Assembly (NCBI GenBank): GCA_947482115.1 | Contig: CANKII010000005.1 | Location: 1 to 64,000, forward strand | Direction of reading: 5' to 3' | Origin: Fibrobacterota bacterium | Lineage (GTDB): Bacteria > Fibrobacterota > Fibrobacteria > UBA11236 | Length of the DNA stretch: 64,000 nt | Shown: positions 27,405-33,222 of the stretch, in pieces | How positions within the stretch are numbered: position 1 is the stretch's first letter | Layout: every line of letters starts with the position of its first letter | The notes under the pieces: generated by a model | Told to the model about the DNA's origin: nothing | The model's input: only the letters and a program-made list of their open reading frames with translations | Databases searched by the model: none | Program-made: the position numbers and the translations under genes

Positions 27405-27818
27405 TTGAGCCAGCTTCGATTTCTTTCCGTCGCATTCGCCCTGTTGTTCACGCTCTCCTGTCGCAAACAGGAAGCCGCACCTCCACCCTCTTTTGTTCCC
27501 AACACCGGACAAATTCAAATCCTGAACGGATGCGGGAAATCCGGAGTGGCTGAATCCTTCCGCGATTTTTTGACGGGGCTCGGTTTCGACGTGATTGAAT
27601 TCGGAAATGCCCGCAACTGGAATTACGAGCATACCTTGGTCATCGCACGTGCGCCGTCGGATTGCATTGCGCGCGACATGGCCCGGGTTCTGGGAACCCC
27701 GCGAGTCCTTCACCTCCAGCATCCCGAATCGCTGGTGGAAGCCACTGTGGTAATTGGTAAAGATTATGAGGAGTTAATGAGAACATGGCAGCAACCAAAA
27801 AAATCAGCAAAACCGTAA
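27405..27818 (+). CDS. LytR_C-domain lipoprotein
   Basis: 137 residues, TTG start directly after the previous stop. Lipoprotein signal ends LLFTLSC (Cys about 19). A LytR_C-type domain spans about 33-122: IQILNGCGKSGVAESFRDFLTGLGFDVIEFGNARNWNYEHTLVIAR is the characteristic start. Such domains are found alone or on LytR-CpsA-Psr wall-polymer ligases; no ligase domain is present here. It overlaps rsfS by 34 bases. Confidence 0.7.
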   Translation: MSQLRFLSVAFALLFTLSCRKQEAAPPPSFVPNTGQIQILNGCGKSGVAESFRDFLTGLGFDVIEFGNARNWNYEHTLVIARAPSDCIARDMARVLGTPRVLHLQHPESLVEATVVIGKDYEELMRTWQQPKKSAKP

Positions 27819-28303
27819 AAGCGCCCAAGGTTGAAAAACCTGCAAAAGCTGAAAAGGTCTCGAAAGTTTCAAAAACCTCCAAAGCTTCCAAGGCGGTGAA
27901 AACTTCAAGCATCGAAGACGCCGTGCGCATGGCCGCGACTGTGCTGTTCTCCAAGAAGGCCGAGGATGTGGTCCTGCTCGATCTGCGCGGTCTCAGCACG
28001 CTGACCGACTATTATCTCATTTGCACCTGTCAGAATGAAGCGCAAATGCGCGCAACGTTGAATTCCGTTCAACGCGCTTTGAGCCGCGAAGGCACCAAGG
28101 CGTTGCGCTCCGAATACCGGGCCGGCGTGCGCTGGGCTGTGCTCGACTACAGCGACCTCATCGTCCACATCTTCGAGAAGCAGGCGCGGGTCTATTACTC
28201 TCTGGAACGGCTTTGGGGCGATGCGAAAGCCACCCACCTCAAGGCGGAAGACTACGCCTCTCCGGATGAAGTGAATTTAGAGGACGAGGATGACGACCTT
28301 TAA
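27785..28303 (+). CDS. rsfS: ribosomal silencing factor with Lys-rich N-terminal tail
   Basis: 172 residues. Residues 1-42 are a Lys/Ala/Ser/Val low-complexity tail with repeated SK units (SKVSKTSKASK). The conserved RsfS/Iojap domain begins at about 43 with SIEDAVRMAATVLFSKKAEDVVLLDLRGLSTLTDYYLICTC and includes the ALDYSDLIVHIF-type segment WAVLDYSDLIVHIF and the YYSLERLWGDA end. RsfS blocks 30S joining by binding L14. The tail is not part of the standard family. Adjacent to argS with 14-base overlap. Confidence 0.92.
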   Translation: MAATKKISKTVKAPKVEKPAKAEKVSKVSKTSKASKAVKTSSIEDAVRMAATVLFSKKAEDVVLLDLRGLSTLTDYYLICTCQNEAQMRATLNSVQRALSREGTKALRSEYRAGVRWAVLDYSDLIVHIFEKQARVYYSLERLWGDAKATHLKAEDYASPDEVNLEDEDDDL

Positions 28304-30020
28304 GCGCAATATCGCCTCGGTGGTGGCACCCGCCACGGGTTTGACCGAGGAGGCGGTGGAAAGCGTCATCACTTTGCCGCAGCATGAAGGACAGGGCGAT
28401 TTTTCCTTTCCCTGTTTTCCCCTAGCCAAAACCCTGCGTCAGGCTCCGGCCGCCATCGCCATCGATTTGGCCAAACGCCTGCAACCGCCTCCCGGCTTTG
28501 TGAAGATCGAAGCCTTGAACGGTTATCTGAATTTCTTCGTGGATAAATCCGATTTTGCGAGCCAGGTGATTTCTGAAATCATCCAAAACGGACCGGCTTA
28601 TGGAAATAATGCGCAGGGAACCGGGAAAATAATTGCCATCGATTTCTCTTCACCCAATATGGGTAAGGAGCTTGCTTTCCATCACTTGCGTGGAACCATG
28701 ATAGGCAACAGCCTCAGCCGCATCTATCATAAAAACGGCTACAAGGTTGAGCGGATCAACCATCTCGGAGACTGGGGCACGTCCTACGGAAAACTGATCG
28801 TCATGTTTCTGCGCGCGGGACTCGGCGAAGCCGATCTGCCGACTTTGACCTTGGAACGACTCAACGCCCTGTATCGCGATTTTGATGCGGCGTCCAAACA
28901 AAATCCAGGGCTGGAAGACGAAGCCCGTCAGGCATTCGCCAAACTGGAATCCAATGACGCCTTTTATCGCATCCTCTGGGCCTCCTTTCGCGAAGTGACA
29001 TTGCATGAGCTTCGACGGCTTTACGCCATCCTCAACGTGGAATTCGACGCCTATGTCGGTGAAGCCTTCTTTGCCGATCGACTCGAAAGCGTACTCGAAC
29101 TTCTGAAATCCAAAAATCTGCTGAGGGAAAGCCAGGGTGCGGAAGTTGTGGATCTCGAAGCCTTCGGCATGCCTCCCGCCTTAATCCGTAAAACCGACGG
29201 CTCCACCTTGTACATCACGCGCGATTTGGCCGCAGCCTTATACCGTCGGGAACACTACGGCTTTGAACATTGCTTTTATGTAGTGGACAACGGTCAAAGC
29301 CTGCACTTTCAGCAATTGTTCAAGGTTCTGGAATTACTCGGCATGGATTGGCATGGACGCTGCGAACACATTCCCTTCGGTTTGGTTCTGATCAAAAGCG
29401 AAGACGGCGGCTGGGAAAAGGGCAAGACGCGCACCGGACAATCCAGTTTGCTCAAGGATGTGCTGGAAGCGGCACGTGACAAGATTCTAGGCATCATGGC
29501 CGAAAAAAATCCCGATCTTGCGGGAAGCCATGAGATTGCCACACGCATTGCCGTCGGTGCTTTGGTTTTCAGTGAATTGAAGAATCGTCGTTTAAACGAC
29601 ATTCGCTTTGAATGGGATCAGGCGTTGAGCTTTGAAGGGGATTCCGGTCCTTATGTGCAGAACGCACATGTTCGTCTGTGCAGCATCCTTCGGAAAACCG
29701 GTCTGGACAGAAAGGCCTGGACTGTTGCCGACTTGAATGGAATACGCTGGGAAATTTTCACGGATTCCTCATCCCTCGCACTGGTGGATCTGTTGGCACA
29801 GTATCCGGACAAGGTTGTAACCGCCTCCCTGTCACGCGATCCCTGCCCTCTCGCGCAATACGCCCTGTCGGTAGCCGATGCCGTGCATCGATTCATCCAT
29901 GATTGCCGGGTATTGGGCGTTCCCGAGGAACGCGAACGGCTTTTGCTGGTGCATGCAGCGAAGTCGGTGCTAGGTTCGGCATTGGAATTGATTGGCGTCC
30001 CCGCCATCGAATCCATGTAG
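28290..30020 (+). CDS. argS: arginyl-tRNA synthetase
   Basis: 576 residues. ArgS N-terminal domain, then the catalytic core with DFSSPNMGKELAFHHLRGTMIGNSL: the class I HIGH region reads AFHH, so the first His and the Gly are changed relative to the usual HVGH. NHLGDWGTSYGKLI, the DAYVGE...LRESQGAEVVDLE linker and the DALR anticodon-binding domain near the C terminus (GDSGPYVQNAHVRLCSILRK) are standard. ArgS commonly lacks a KMSKS, and here GKTRTGQSSLL sits in that place. Overlap with rsfS suggests coupled translation. Confidence 0.93.
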   Translation: MTTFKRNIASVVAPATGLTEEAVESVITLPQHEGQGDFSFPCFPLAKTLRQAPAAIAIDLAKRLQPPPGFVKIEALNGYLNFFVDKSDFASQVISEIIQNGPAYGNNAQGTGKIIAIDFSSPNMGKELAFHHLRGTMIGNSLSRIYHKNGYKVERINHLGDWGTSYGKLIVMFLRAGLGEADLPTLTLERLNALYRDFDAASKQNPGLEDEARQAFAKLESNDAFYRILWASFREVTLHELRRLYAILNVEFDAYVGEAFFADRLESVLELLKSKNLLRESQGAEVVDLEAFGMPPALIRKTDGSTLYITRDLAAALYRREHYGFEHCFYVVDNGQSLHFQQLFKVLELLGMDWHGRCEHIPFGLVLIKSEDGGWEKGKTRTGQSSLLKDVLEAARDKILGIMAEKNPDLAGSHEIATRIAVGALVFSELKNRRLNDIRFEWDQALSFEGDSGPYVQNAHVRLCSILRKTGLDRKAWTVADLNGIRWEIFTDSSSLALVDLLAQYPDKVVTASLSRDPCPLAQYALSVADAVHRFIHDCRVLGVPEERERLLLVHAAKSVLGSALELIGVPAIESM

Positions 30021-30116
30021 GCCTGCGGGGGGCGGATTTAAATTCCTCCCCTACGGGAAATAATTCCGATCCTTATTCAAATCAACAACTTACACGAAAA
30101 AATCCCAAAAACAGAA

Positions 30117-30144
30117 AAGGAGCCCCGGACGTCCGAGGCTCCTT
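30117..30144 (-). terminator. rho-independent terminator of the small Ala/Lys gene
   Basis: AAGGAGCC/GGCTCCTT plus CGGAC/GTCCG form a near-perfect 28-base palindrome (one C/A mismatch). Minus-strand reading gives TTTTCTGTTTTT directly after it, so it ends the leftward transcript. It lies 40 bases after the Ala/Lys stop codon. Confidence 0.75.
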
Positions 30145-30184
30145 AAGCATTTGATTCCAACAAAGTTGGAAAAGAGGAGAAGAA

Positions 30185-30250
30185 CTACTTCTTCTTCTTC
30201 TTCGCTGCTTTCTTAGCAACTTTCTTTGCGGCTTTTTTCTTGGCGGCCAT
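30185..30250 (-). CDS. 21-residue Ala/Lys-rich histone-H1-like peptide
   Basis: Absent from the ORF track because it is short. The translation is M-AAKKKAAKKVAKKAA followed by five Lys, with no aromatic or acidic residue. It is a convincing gene: GGAGGTGATC, fully complementary to the 3' end of 16S rRNA, stands just before the ATG, the reading frame stops at TAG, and a strong terminator follows. Such Ala/Lys peptides resemble the tails of bacterial H1-like DNA-binding proteins, so it may coat nucleic acids. Other readings are a ribosome-associated or leader peptide. Function unknown. Confidence 0.7.
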   Translation of the reverse strand: MAAKKKAAKKVAKKAAKKKKK

Positions 30251-30280
30251 GTGATCACCTCCCTCCGGATGGATTTGGTT

Positions 30281-30439
30281 TTAACGAATTGTATGGATGA
30301 AAAAAGATTGAAAGCCGATCTTCGCCGTATGTGCAACAGGGAAACGATCGCCTGATAAGCCTGTGTTTATTGGGGTTCCCGCGATTCGCACTTCGTGGTT
30401 GAAGTCGTTGATGCGGAAAATGTTTTGCTGTTCGGTCAA
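30281..30439 (-). CDS. candidate 52-residue protein upstream of the Ala/Lys peptide
   Basis: TTG-initiated ORF too short for the track. AAGGA lies 8 bases before the start, and a promoter with near-consensus boxes ends about 35 bases upstream, leaving a short leader. The translation (TEQQNIFRINDFNHEVRIAG... ending FFIHTIR) has balanced composition with no long runs. The 30 bases between its stop and the ATG of the Ala/Lys gene hold that gene's ribosome site. No homologue is known to me. It may instead be a structured 5' leader. Confidence 0.35.
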   Translation of the reverse strand: MTEQQNIFRINDFNHEVRIAGTPINTGLSGDRFPVAHTAKIGFQSFFIHTIR

Positions 30440-30473: not shown

Positions 30474-30502
30474 ATGATAAGGTAGTTGACACGATAAGTC
30501 AA
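30474..30502 (-). promoter_or_regulatory. near-consensus sigma70 promoter, leftward
   Basis: Minus strand: TTGACT, 17-base spacer, TATCAT (5/6 each). Located 44 bases after the glnD stop codon, it gives the small gene pair its own transcript. Confidence 0.6.
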
Positions 30503-30546: not shown

Positions 30547-33222
30547 CTAATCGGAAGCGAGTTCGCGTCCGATCGCGGCGATGATCTCTTCACAACGCGC
30601 ATCATCGGTAATCTTTTTTCCATCTTCGCTGGTGATGTAAAAAGCATCCGTTGCCTTGTCCGCTTCGGTTGTCAGCACGGCGCCATGCACATTCAATCCC
30701 AGTTCGCTCAAGACCAATGCTACCTGAAAAAGAATTCCGATGCGATCCCGGCACACGACATCCATCACGGTAAAAACATCGGATATGTCATTGGATGCCA
30801 ACACTTTAGGTTCGATGGGGGCATCCCCCGTAATGTCATGAACGGCACGATCGCGGCGGCGCAGCTCGCGCAATTCCCCGCGATCCAGCAAAAAGTGTTT
30901 GCGCAGTTCAGCGAGAATGCGCGTGCGAAGCACTTCGGGGGAAGAGACATTGCCCTCGGGCAATGCAACCCAGAAGCGATCGACGACGCGTCCGCCGCCC
31001 AGGGTGTAAATCTTCGCGCTCAAAATCGAAAGTCCCAAATGCGCCAGCGTTCCCGCAATGCGGCACAACAGGGCCTTTTCATCGCGCGCTGCGACCGTAA
31101 TTTCCCAATGCGTCGGCTTTGCCGACACATGAACTCCGAAATCGCCCTTTGCCGTGGCCTGCAACAATCCGGCATGCAGTGCCATGTCCTCGGGGGAATG
31201 CACCGCCATGTAATTCCCGGTAAGCGCCTGTAAATGCGTGCGCGCCTCTTCCTGAGGCAGCACTCGCACAAGAGCGGCCATCACCGCATCTTCTTCCGGT
31301 CCTCTCCGTTGCGCCTGCGCGGACTCGTAGGGAGCCAGCAACATTTTCAACGCGGCTTCGTACAAATGGTGCAGCAAGCTGGCCTTCCACGGAGACCACG
31401 CCGAGGGATGCACGGAGGAGACATCGCAATAGGTCAGCACATAGAGCTTGTGGAGAAATGCAGGGCCTTCCACTTTGGCGATGAAATCGTGGATGGTCTT
31501 GGGATCATCCAGATCCCTTCTCTGAATGACATCATTCATCAAGAGATGATGCAGGACGAGATTCGAGGCCGTGAGACAACGCGCAGCGGAAAAACCCATC
31601 CCTTCGAGGAATTTGAATATCATGGCGGCGCCGCTCACGGAATGTCCGGGACCCACGCCTTTTCCGATGTCGTGGTAAAAGCACACCAACACCAGCAATT
31701 CCCGATCGGTGACCTGCTCAAAAGCGCCACGAAGGGATTCCAGCTCCTTCTCGGAACTTTTAGCAAGATAGGCAAGCTGACGCACCACGGTGATGGTATG
31801 CTCGTCGGTCGTGTAGATATGGTAGGTGTCGTGATGGCTGTGGCAGTAGATGTAGTTGAAATCCGGAATCAACAATCCAAGGAGCCCCACATCGTTCATG
31901 CAGCGCAGCATCCGCCCCACGCGCTCGGGACGCTGGCAAAATTCAAGGAAACGGTGCAGAGGCCCGGTAAGATCGAGTTCCTCCTGCGTCGAGAACAGGG
32001 AAATGGCCTGCTTTAATCTCAGAATAGCGTGATGGGCATATCCCAGACCGTTTTGGTTGGCCAGTTCAAAGTAATCGAGGATGAGATCCAGATTTCCGCG
32101 AAAGGGATTCCCCACTCGCGCAATCAAATCCATGGCCCGATGCTCGGATTTGAAATGGGGATGTTTTTTCAGCGGATCGGATTTCCACTTGGAACCCGGA
32201 GCGGGTATCCAACGCGAAATCACGGCTTCCACCACCCGGTTCACCGTTTTGGTGTGATGGTAGAACGCCTTGAGGAACACCTGAACGGCCTTGAAGGCGC
32301 CATCGTCCACAAATCCCAGCTCTGCTGCCACTTCGGGCTGCAAATGGAAGTTGAGACGGTCATCCTTCTTTTGTGTCATGAAATGGATGCAGCAACGCAC
32401 CTGCAGGAGAAAATCATAGGCGACGCGGATGTCTTCCTGCTCCTGCGGGGTAATGAGGCCCTCGCGCACCAAATCCTCGAAGTTGTCGCAATCATGCTTG
32501 ACCTTGGCGATCCACATCATGGAATGCACATCGCGGAGGCAACCCATCCCCTCCTTGATGTCCGGTTCCAGCAATTGAACCAGTGCGCCCATCCGGGCGA
32601 TGCGATCCCGCCGCTCCCGCAGCTTGGACTCGACCAGGGTCGAAATGCGCCAAGGAAGGAGACGGCGGCTCATCATATGCGCAAAGCGACTGTAAAGTTC
32701 GTGATTGCCCGCCACAAACCTTTCATTGAGAAAGGATGTCCATGTGTCCGGGTCTTTGGCCGAAGCTTCCTTGCATTGGGCGAGGGAACGGACGGAAGAG
32801 CCCACCGTGAATCCGAAGTCCCACAAATTGCGAACGATGGATTCAGCTTGTGAAATTTCATAACCATCCGGTTTCGCAGAGGTTAGAATAAGCAGGTCAA
32901 TATCGCTTTGAGGACAGAGCTCCATGCGCCCATAACCTCCGACGGCAACAACCGCCACGAGACTCGCATCATCAGGCATTCCCATTTCCACCTGATCCCA
33001 GAAAACACGCAACAGGGTGTCGACCATCTCGCTGATGAAGCGCACGGTGTCGTTACCCGAGGCTCCGCCCTGATTCAAACGGCGAATCTTGTCGCGCTGG
33101 CGATCCAACACGGCCTTGACCTCGCGATTGCGCTGCACGGGATCGGGAACGCCGAAGCTGTCGCGCAGGGCTTCCACGAAGTCGCTGCGCTTTTCGAGAT
33201 GGGTCAGATAGCGTTGTACCAT
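30547..33222 (-). CDS. glnD: bifunctional uridylyltransferase/uridylyl-removing enzyme (PII sensor)
   Basis: 891 residues. Uridylylates PII when glutamine is low and removes UMP when it is high. Nucleotidyltransferase motif GGYGRMELCPQSDIDLLIL at about 94-112, a central helical domain, an HD hydrolase domain (HSHHDTYHIYTTDEHT and FYHDIGKGVGPGHS) and two C-terminal ACT domains (WEITVAARDEKALLCRIAGTLAHLGLSI; FTVMDVVCRDRIGILFQVALVLSELGLNV). The likely target is GlnK, encoded at 53.7 kb. GGA is 6 bases before the ATG. The gene is 8 bases after the permease gene and probably cotranscribed with it. Confidence 0.95.
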   Translation of the reverse strand: MVQRYLTHLEKRSDFVEALRDSFGVPDPVQRNREVKAVLDRQRDKIRRLNQGGASGNDTVRFISEMVDTLLRVFWDQVEMGMPDDASLVAVVAVGGYGRMELCPQSDIDLLILTSAKPDGYEISQAESIVRNLWDFGFTVGSSVRSLAQCKEASAKDPDTWTSFLNERFVAGNHELYSRFAHMMSRRLLPWRISTLVESKLRERRDRIARMGALVQLLEPDIKEGMGCLRDVHSMMWIAKVKHDCDNFEDLVREGLITPQEQEDIRVAYDFLLQVRCCIHFMTQKKDDRLNFHLQPEVAAELGFVDDGAFKAVQVFLKAFYHHTKTVNRVVEAVISRWIPAPGSKWKSDPLKKHPHFKSEHRAMDLIARVGNPFRGNLDLILDYFELANQNGLGYAHHAILRLKQAISLFSTQEELDLTGPLHRFLEFCQRPERVGRMLRCMNDVGLLGLLIPDFNYIYCHSHHDTYHIYTTDEHTITVVRQLAYLAKSSEKELESLRGAFEQVTDRELLVLVCFYHDIGKGVGPGHSVSGAAMIFKFLEGMGFSAARCLTASNLVLHHLLMNDVIQRRDLDDPKTIHDFIAKVEGPAFLHKLYVLTYCDVSSVHPSAWSPWKASLLHHLYEAALKMLLAPYESAQAQRRGPEEDAVMAALVRVLPQEEARTHLQALTGNYMAVHSPEDMALHAGLLQATAKGDFGVHVSAKPTHWEITVAARDEKALLCRIAGTLAHLGLSILSAKIYTLGGGRVVDRFWVALPEGNVSSPEVLRTRILAELRKHFLLDRGELRELRRRDRAVHDITGDAPIEPKVLASNDISDVFTVMDVVCRDRIGILFQVALVLSELGLNVHGAVLTTEADKATDAFYITSEDGKKITDDARCEEIIAAIGRELASD

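Follow-up and report, generated by a model that had tools for sequence, protein, structure and literature searches.

The window analysed here, a stretch of 64,000 nt from a Fibrobacterota genome, carries on its minus strand a very short open reading frame (hereafter, the micro-ORF) that lies between glnD and a convergent argS and has transcription and translation signals of its own. The features of the locus, in order of position, are as follows.

28290..30020, plus strand: argS (arginyl-tRNA synthetase; Pfam tRNA-synt_1d and DALR_1), convergent downstream neighbour
30107..30144, minus strand: intrinsic terminator, a 12-bp GC-rich stem (30144-30117) and a T-rich tail
30155..30171, minus strand: first 3' hairpin, TTCCAAC-TTT-GTTGGAA; relatives have hairpins of different sequence here
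30185..30250, minus strand: micro-ORF, ATG start, 21 codons, TAG stop; product MAAKKKAAKKVAKKAAKKKKK, 21 aa
30251..30466, minus strand: 5' leader of ~215 nt, its start placed from the promoter
30253..30262, minus strand: extended Shine-Dalgarno sequence (SD) GGAGGTGATC, 10 nt, ending 2 nt upstream of the ATG
30360..30373, minus strand: leader motif CCAATRANNAYNGG, here CCAATAAACACAGG, seen in 10 of 10 leaders
30474..30502, minus strand: sigma-70-like promoter TTGACT-17-TATCAT, with the -35 element inside a TTGAC-N7-GTCAA dyad
30547..33222, minus strand: glnD (PII uridylyltransferase; Pfam GlnD_UR_UTase, HD and ACT), upstream neighbour

The predicted peptide contains 12 Lys and no acidic residue among its 21 residues. 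Usual annotation cut-offs exceed 21 codons. We conclude that the segment from 30250 to 30185 on the minus strand is almost certainly a genuine, overlooked gene for an Ala/Lys microprotein. An earlier note on this DNA had proposed such a gene from inspection of the letters, and the proposal was borne out by the translation, by a kept reading frame and by substitutions with codon periodicity. Searches of the micro-ORF and family peptides against Pfam, NCBIfam and, with a 42-aa homologue as query, PDB chains returned no helpful sequence match, and we did not find freestanding lysine/alanine microproteins described in the open-access literature.

Each of the ten genomes of the family (Fibrobacteres lineage) has a single match to the pattern of the locus, and GGAGGTGAT, the reading frame, the promoter and the terminator are retained in all ten. 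Conservation of frame and ribosome site in relatives, which the earlier note had set as the test that could refute the gene, was thus found throughout the family. The first family pattern (GGAGGTGAT, a gap, ATGGC and then two Lys codons) had no match in 51 further relatives, and a reversed-pattern control also had none; a looser pattern run on 126 genomes of the class recovered the same ten and none of the other 116, so that the sister families lack the gene and it is not a universal need. Gene order is kept as well, with glnD upstream in 10 of 10 genomes and argS convergent wherever the contig extends far enough. No similar plasmid DNA was found, and a plasmid origin was set aside.

Substitutions within the family are those expected of a protein-coding sequence. 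Six genomes of a sister genus (g2) vary at 0, 5 and 10 of 29 columns for codon positions 1, 2 and 3, and the in-frame substitution score was +2.81, compared with 0.34 ± 0.80 in column shuffles, none of 500 of which scored as high. The same test gave no coding signal in the shifted frames of the micro-ORF. All length changes among family members are whole codons; the peptides measure 19, 21, 27, 28 or 42 aa, consist of Ala and Lys with some Thr, Val, Ser or Pro, and reach their different sizes through the number of AAKK/ATKK repeats. With frame, start and SD kept and third-position substitutions favoured, the micro-ORF has the signature of a protein-coding microgene.

The ribosome binding site is exceptional within the window. 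The GGAGG core lies 7 nt from the ATG, and all 10 nt of GGAGGTGATC can pair with the 3' end of 16S rRNA as usually found in bacteria, a well-established sequence that the host's own 16S tail is assumed to share. The calculated duplex energy is -24.1 kcal/mol, compared with a best value of -14.1 and a median of -8.6 for 52 other, non-overlapping ORFs of the window of at least 100 aa, each of which was permitted its best start. No other window ORF examined has an SD that matches as much of the 16S tail, in agreement with the earlier claim that it has the best ribosome binding site there. The 10-mer occurs twice in the 2.72-Mb assembly, with an ATG nearby only at the micro-ORF copy. Strong translation is very probable on these grounds, and the suggestion that the gene is highly expressed is upheld as far as signals go, namely the SD and the sigma-70-like promoter.

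The transcription signals are those of a single-gene unit. The promoter starts ~45 nt past the end of glnD and is legible as TTGACT-N6-GTCAA-N5-TTATCATTT upstream of the micro-ORF in all ten family genomes. The promoter element with its dyad occurs only once in its own genome, and the dyad was accordingly rejected as the operator of a regulon. Downstream, a 171-nt stretch folds better than 200 of 200 shuffles (z -4.3), and 10 of 10 family genomes have two 3' hairpins of differing sequence, with T's after the second. The strong terminator of its own that had been attributed to the gene is a 12-bp stem with a T-rich tail, and a terminator lies in the same place in every family member.

The 5' leader is conserved in a different manner. 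The motif CCAATRANNAYNGG is the only leader element common to all ten family leaders; nine have the exact pattern and one (G007) the variant TCAATAATCATCGG, which begins TC. In g2 the leader folds into a three-helix RNA, a closing helix with two hairpins, one of which has been rewritten in sequence between genomes with its pairing retained. Across 26 pairs, 84.6% of cells are paired, compared with at most 42% when partners are slid, and the covariation score exceeds that of 500 of 500 shuffles; the evidence for a covarying g2 fold, drawn from six related sequences, is good but short of conclusive. A search with a covariance model of this leader (R1) gave one match per g2 genome, only at the micro-ORF locus, and no match in the class's 120 other genomes, where stricter filters can lose weak matches. 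A wider riboswitch family was rejected, since R1 matches are confined to the g2 micro-ORF locus. R1 also went undetected in the window's own genus, so we do not claim the leader structure for the window. The g2 leader RNA (L013-L018) is single-copy in each genome and carries the loop AAUAAYCAC.

The leader also contains an open frame at 30281-30439 (minus strand; 52 aa, TTG start) that ends 30 nt ahead of the micro-ORF start, and similar open frames occur in relatives' leaders (e.g., '..SRPITTGPKRYP..' in g2). We rejected it as a second conserved protein, as no frame gave a coding signal (shuffle fractions 0.47, 0.87 and 0.09) and the frame differs in two relatives (G001 and G003). Because, in addition, the conserved nucleotides coincide with paired RNA, we treat the region as an RNA element; it may nevertheless include a translated uORF.

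We scanned GTDB-wide genome contigs for GGAGG-N4-10-ATG followed by codons for MA(A/S/T)KKKxxKK and obtained at least 118 stretches, against a chance expectation that we roughly estimate as far below one. At least 67 complete ORFs of 13-39 aa (look-alikes, defined as complete ORFs of no more than 45 aa), at least 56 of them distinct, come from Bacteria and DPANN archaea. Among the matches listed, these 67 contain 760 Lys and 350 Ala in ~1,325 residues, and no Asp, Glu, Phe, Tyr or Trp. Record titles name Acidobacteria, Eisenbacteria, Oligoflexia/Bdellovibrionales, Nitrospinales, Nitrospirae, Spirochaetes, Dormiibacterota, Eremiobacteria, Parcubacteria-type phyla and Verrucomicrobiota (Limisphaerales) among bacteria, and Woese-, Pace- and Diapherotrites archaea; since many of these records are MAGs, individual assignments may be wrong. 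Among the carriers is Anaeromyxobacter, which can be cultured and has a 28-aa look-alike (L062). Among the matches listed, the full GGAGGTGAT stands ahead of 11 of the 67 look-alikes but of none of the 48 longer ORFs that share their N-terminus (Fisher p 0.002, kinship ignored; two of the 11 are from the window's own family).

In each of five lineages inspected, the start, SD and frame of the look-alike are kept from one species to another, and several show synonymous changes and keep a 3' hairpin; the peptides measure 13 aa in Acidobacteria, 22 in Eisenbacteria, 23-27 in Oligoflexia, 20 in Nitrospinales and 13 in Woesearchaeota. The acidobacterial loci (L045, L073, L096, L112, L131, L142 and L151) encode MATKKKAAKKKKH, of 13 aa, behind a conserved upstream block CCTTGGGAGA, and their terminators keep the loop GAAGCACC in nearly all cases on a variable stem. 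Woese- and Pacearchaeota records (L053, L069 and L048) encode 13-aa peptides, MAAKKKAAKKKKQ or MAAKKKAAKKKRR, with a bacterial-type SD. Flanking genes, read by eye, vary by lineage; a shared neighbour across phyla was thus rejected, and guilt by association does not carry over from one phylum to another. For sequences this simple, common descent and repeated origin would look alike. We found no link between the look-alikes and the attack-phase sRNAs of Bdellovibrio (PMC3627812).

The closest parallels in composition are the H1-like tails of larger bacterial proteins, such as the C-terminal domains of AlgP and PhaF, and Chlamydia Hc2, which share the low-complexity Lys/Ala repeats with Thr, Val, Pro or Ser. 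In vitro, DNA is bound by the KPAA-repeat tails of AlgP (PMC9239181), and the size of Hc2 changes via lysine-rich pentamers (PMC2848022), so that in both, as in the micro-ORF family (19-42 aa), length follows repeat number. Unlike Hc2 (165-237 aa) and AlgP (352 aa), the tail alone, of 13-42 aa, is here the whole product: what is known as a part of larger proteins forms a gene of its own, among the smallest conserved protein genes. The likeness to histone H1 tails that the earlier note had drawn stands for composition and does not extend to a family match in Pfam, NCBIfam or PDB; HC2 (PF07382; cut-off 40 bits) had no match to window or family peptides, and its best score, 12.3 bits, went to a 96-aa look-alike from another phylum. 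The identical MAAKKKAAKK start and SD also turned up, in the same scan, in proteins with a putative SWIB domain (e.g., Fibrobacteres G156/L188); unlike these, the window gene stops after the tail.

We propose, as the best explanation and one with the balance of probability modestly in its favour, that the gene is abundantly translated into a freestanding polycation, a minimal helix resembling an H1 tail, whose partner is nucleic acid or some other polyanion. A sigma-70-like promoter right after glnD would drive a short monocistronic mRNA ended by the two 3' hairpins, and the extreme SD would capture 30S subunits and thereby give the 21-residue peptide in quantity, an amount we infer from the signals. 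The product would correspond to the Ala/Lys tail of a histone H1-like protein, made without the rest of that protein, and would become a single helix once its charge is neutralised. AlphaFold2 models the 42-aa homologue as one helix (residues 2-41, pLDDT 86); such calls come readily for Ala/Lys sequences, for which a single long helix is expected. Binding would be non-specific and most likely directed at nucleic acid, either structured RNA or the DNA of the nucleoid; rRNA and polyphosphate are also candidates, and the bound peptide may serve as a small condensing or shielding counter-ion, a role suggested by its composition. In g2, synthesis may be adjustable through the folded leader RNA. That the peptide functions by binding nucleic acid or a polyanion is rather likely from composition, which by itself does not separate DNA, RNA, the ribosome and polyphosphate as partners. 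A free peptide of 21 residues could also be too short for tight binding, or be quickly degraded. The nucleoid, RNA-binding and ribosome-associated functions offered in the earlier note are candidate roles; the long leader with its conserved motif, the synteny across the family and the occurrence in other phyla go beyond that note.

The main rival is a ribosome-associated microprotein, that is, a tiny basic ribosomal component or ribosome-binding factor resembling eukaryotic/archaeal eL41 or bacterial bTHX, whose one basic helix would be lodged in rRNA. The peptide has a suitable size, charge and helix propensity for this role, the strongest SD of the window is what a protein needed in ribosome-like amounts should have, and the look-alikes extend to DPANN archaea. 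We nonetheless judge it unlikely. The gene adjoins glnD and argS, outside any ribosomal operon; the 42-aa homologue matched no PDB chain by sequence; sister families lack the gene, and their ribosomes must work regardless; and a length that ranges from 19 to 42 aa by repeat number is unlike a fixed ribosomal part. The ribosomal protein eL41, of 25 aa, is likewise a very short, highly basic single helix, but it is Arg-rich and fixed in length, unlike the Ala/Lys repeats of this family.

The remaining alternatives place the function in the transcript. If the ~350-nt RNA were itself the working molecule, an sRNA or structured regulator with an incidental or dual-function ORF, it would account for the long conserved leader, the compensatory changes in the three-helix fold of g2 and the loop motif of all ten leaders; it is improbable in view of the clear coding signature in the micro-ORF and none in the leader frames, the failure of the leader model in the window's own genus, and look-alikes that, at the loci inspected, share ORF and SD without this leader. 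A regulatory leader peptide, in which translation of the Lys/Ala-codon run attenuates a downstream gene, would suit a short ORF with a Lys-codon run followed by two hairpins and a terminator, but there is no co-directional gene downstream to attenuate (argS is convergent in every family locus that reaches it), and the unit starts from a dedicated promoter and closes with a strong terminator; we give this reading very little credence. Membership of the sX6 transcript family (Rfam RF02225) is just as implausible: the cmscan match that raised it scores 27.9 bits, under the gathering score of 40, its alignment consists of the AAGAAG run and the terminator with ~200 model positions skipped, and none of the ten family genomes matched in a whole-genome search. 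Other weak Rfam matches were also below threshold. What sX6 does share with the micro-ORF is a short transcript with a small ORF and a terminator; it was first filed as an sRNA, and its Xanthomonas protein was later verified by mass spectrometry (PMC5559785). The comparison is a warning that highly expressed 'sRNAs' may include mRNAs that encode peptides of this kind.

Returning to the freestanding polycation, we tentatively suggest, at somewhat less than even probability, that freestanding Ala/Lys microproteins of 13-40 aa form a widespread and unrecognised class in prokaryotes. Each such gene would in effect be an H1 tail that stands alone, with a promoter and a terminator of its own and a very strong ribosome site, and the carriers would be Fibrobacteres, Acidobacteria, Eisenbacteria, Bdellovibrionota/Oligoflexia, Nitrospinota, candidate phyla and DPANN archaea. 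The products would be made in large amounts and act as genetically encoded, polyamine-like counter-ions of nucleic acids. Should the class be real, it has gone unnoticed because annotation drops such short ORFs and low-complexity filters hide them, and it would offer a convenient way to ask whether a nucleoid or a ribosome can be organised by a simple polycation that lacks a DNA-binding fold.

Similar sequences occur elsewhere in the lineage and beyond. The window's genome has a second freestanding ORF, of Ala/Lys/Pro composition and 37 aa (MAKKKAAKKTAKKAAPVKAAPVKKAPAKKAAKKAAKK; L171, G000:C4, ~240367), with a weaker SD (AGGAG) and a stem-loop downstream, and a congener (G001) has a freestanding 47-aa Ala/Lys ORF (L170, G001:C14, ~30958) with SD AGGAG and a strong terminator. 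Putative SWIB-domain proteins with Ala/Lys tails of the same N-terminus were seen in several phyla (L044, L054, L097, L035, L117 and L043). Within the window, the ribosome silencing factor RsfS (27785-28303, plus strand) has a Lys/Ala-rich N-terminal tail of ~49 aa; RsfS of g2, at 139 aa, starts MAKTKTVVEAQ or MAKSKTVVEAQ without such a tail.
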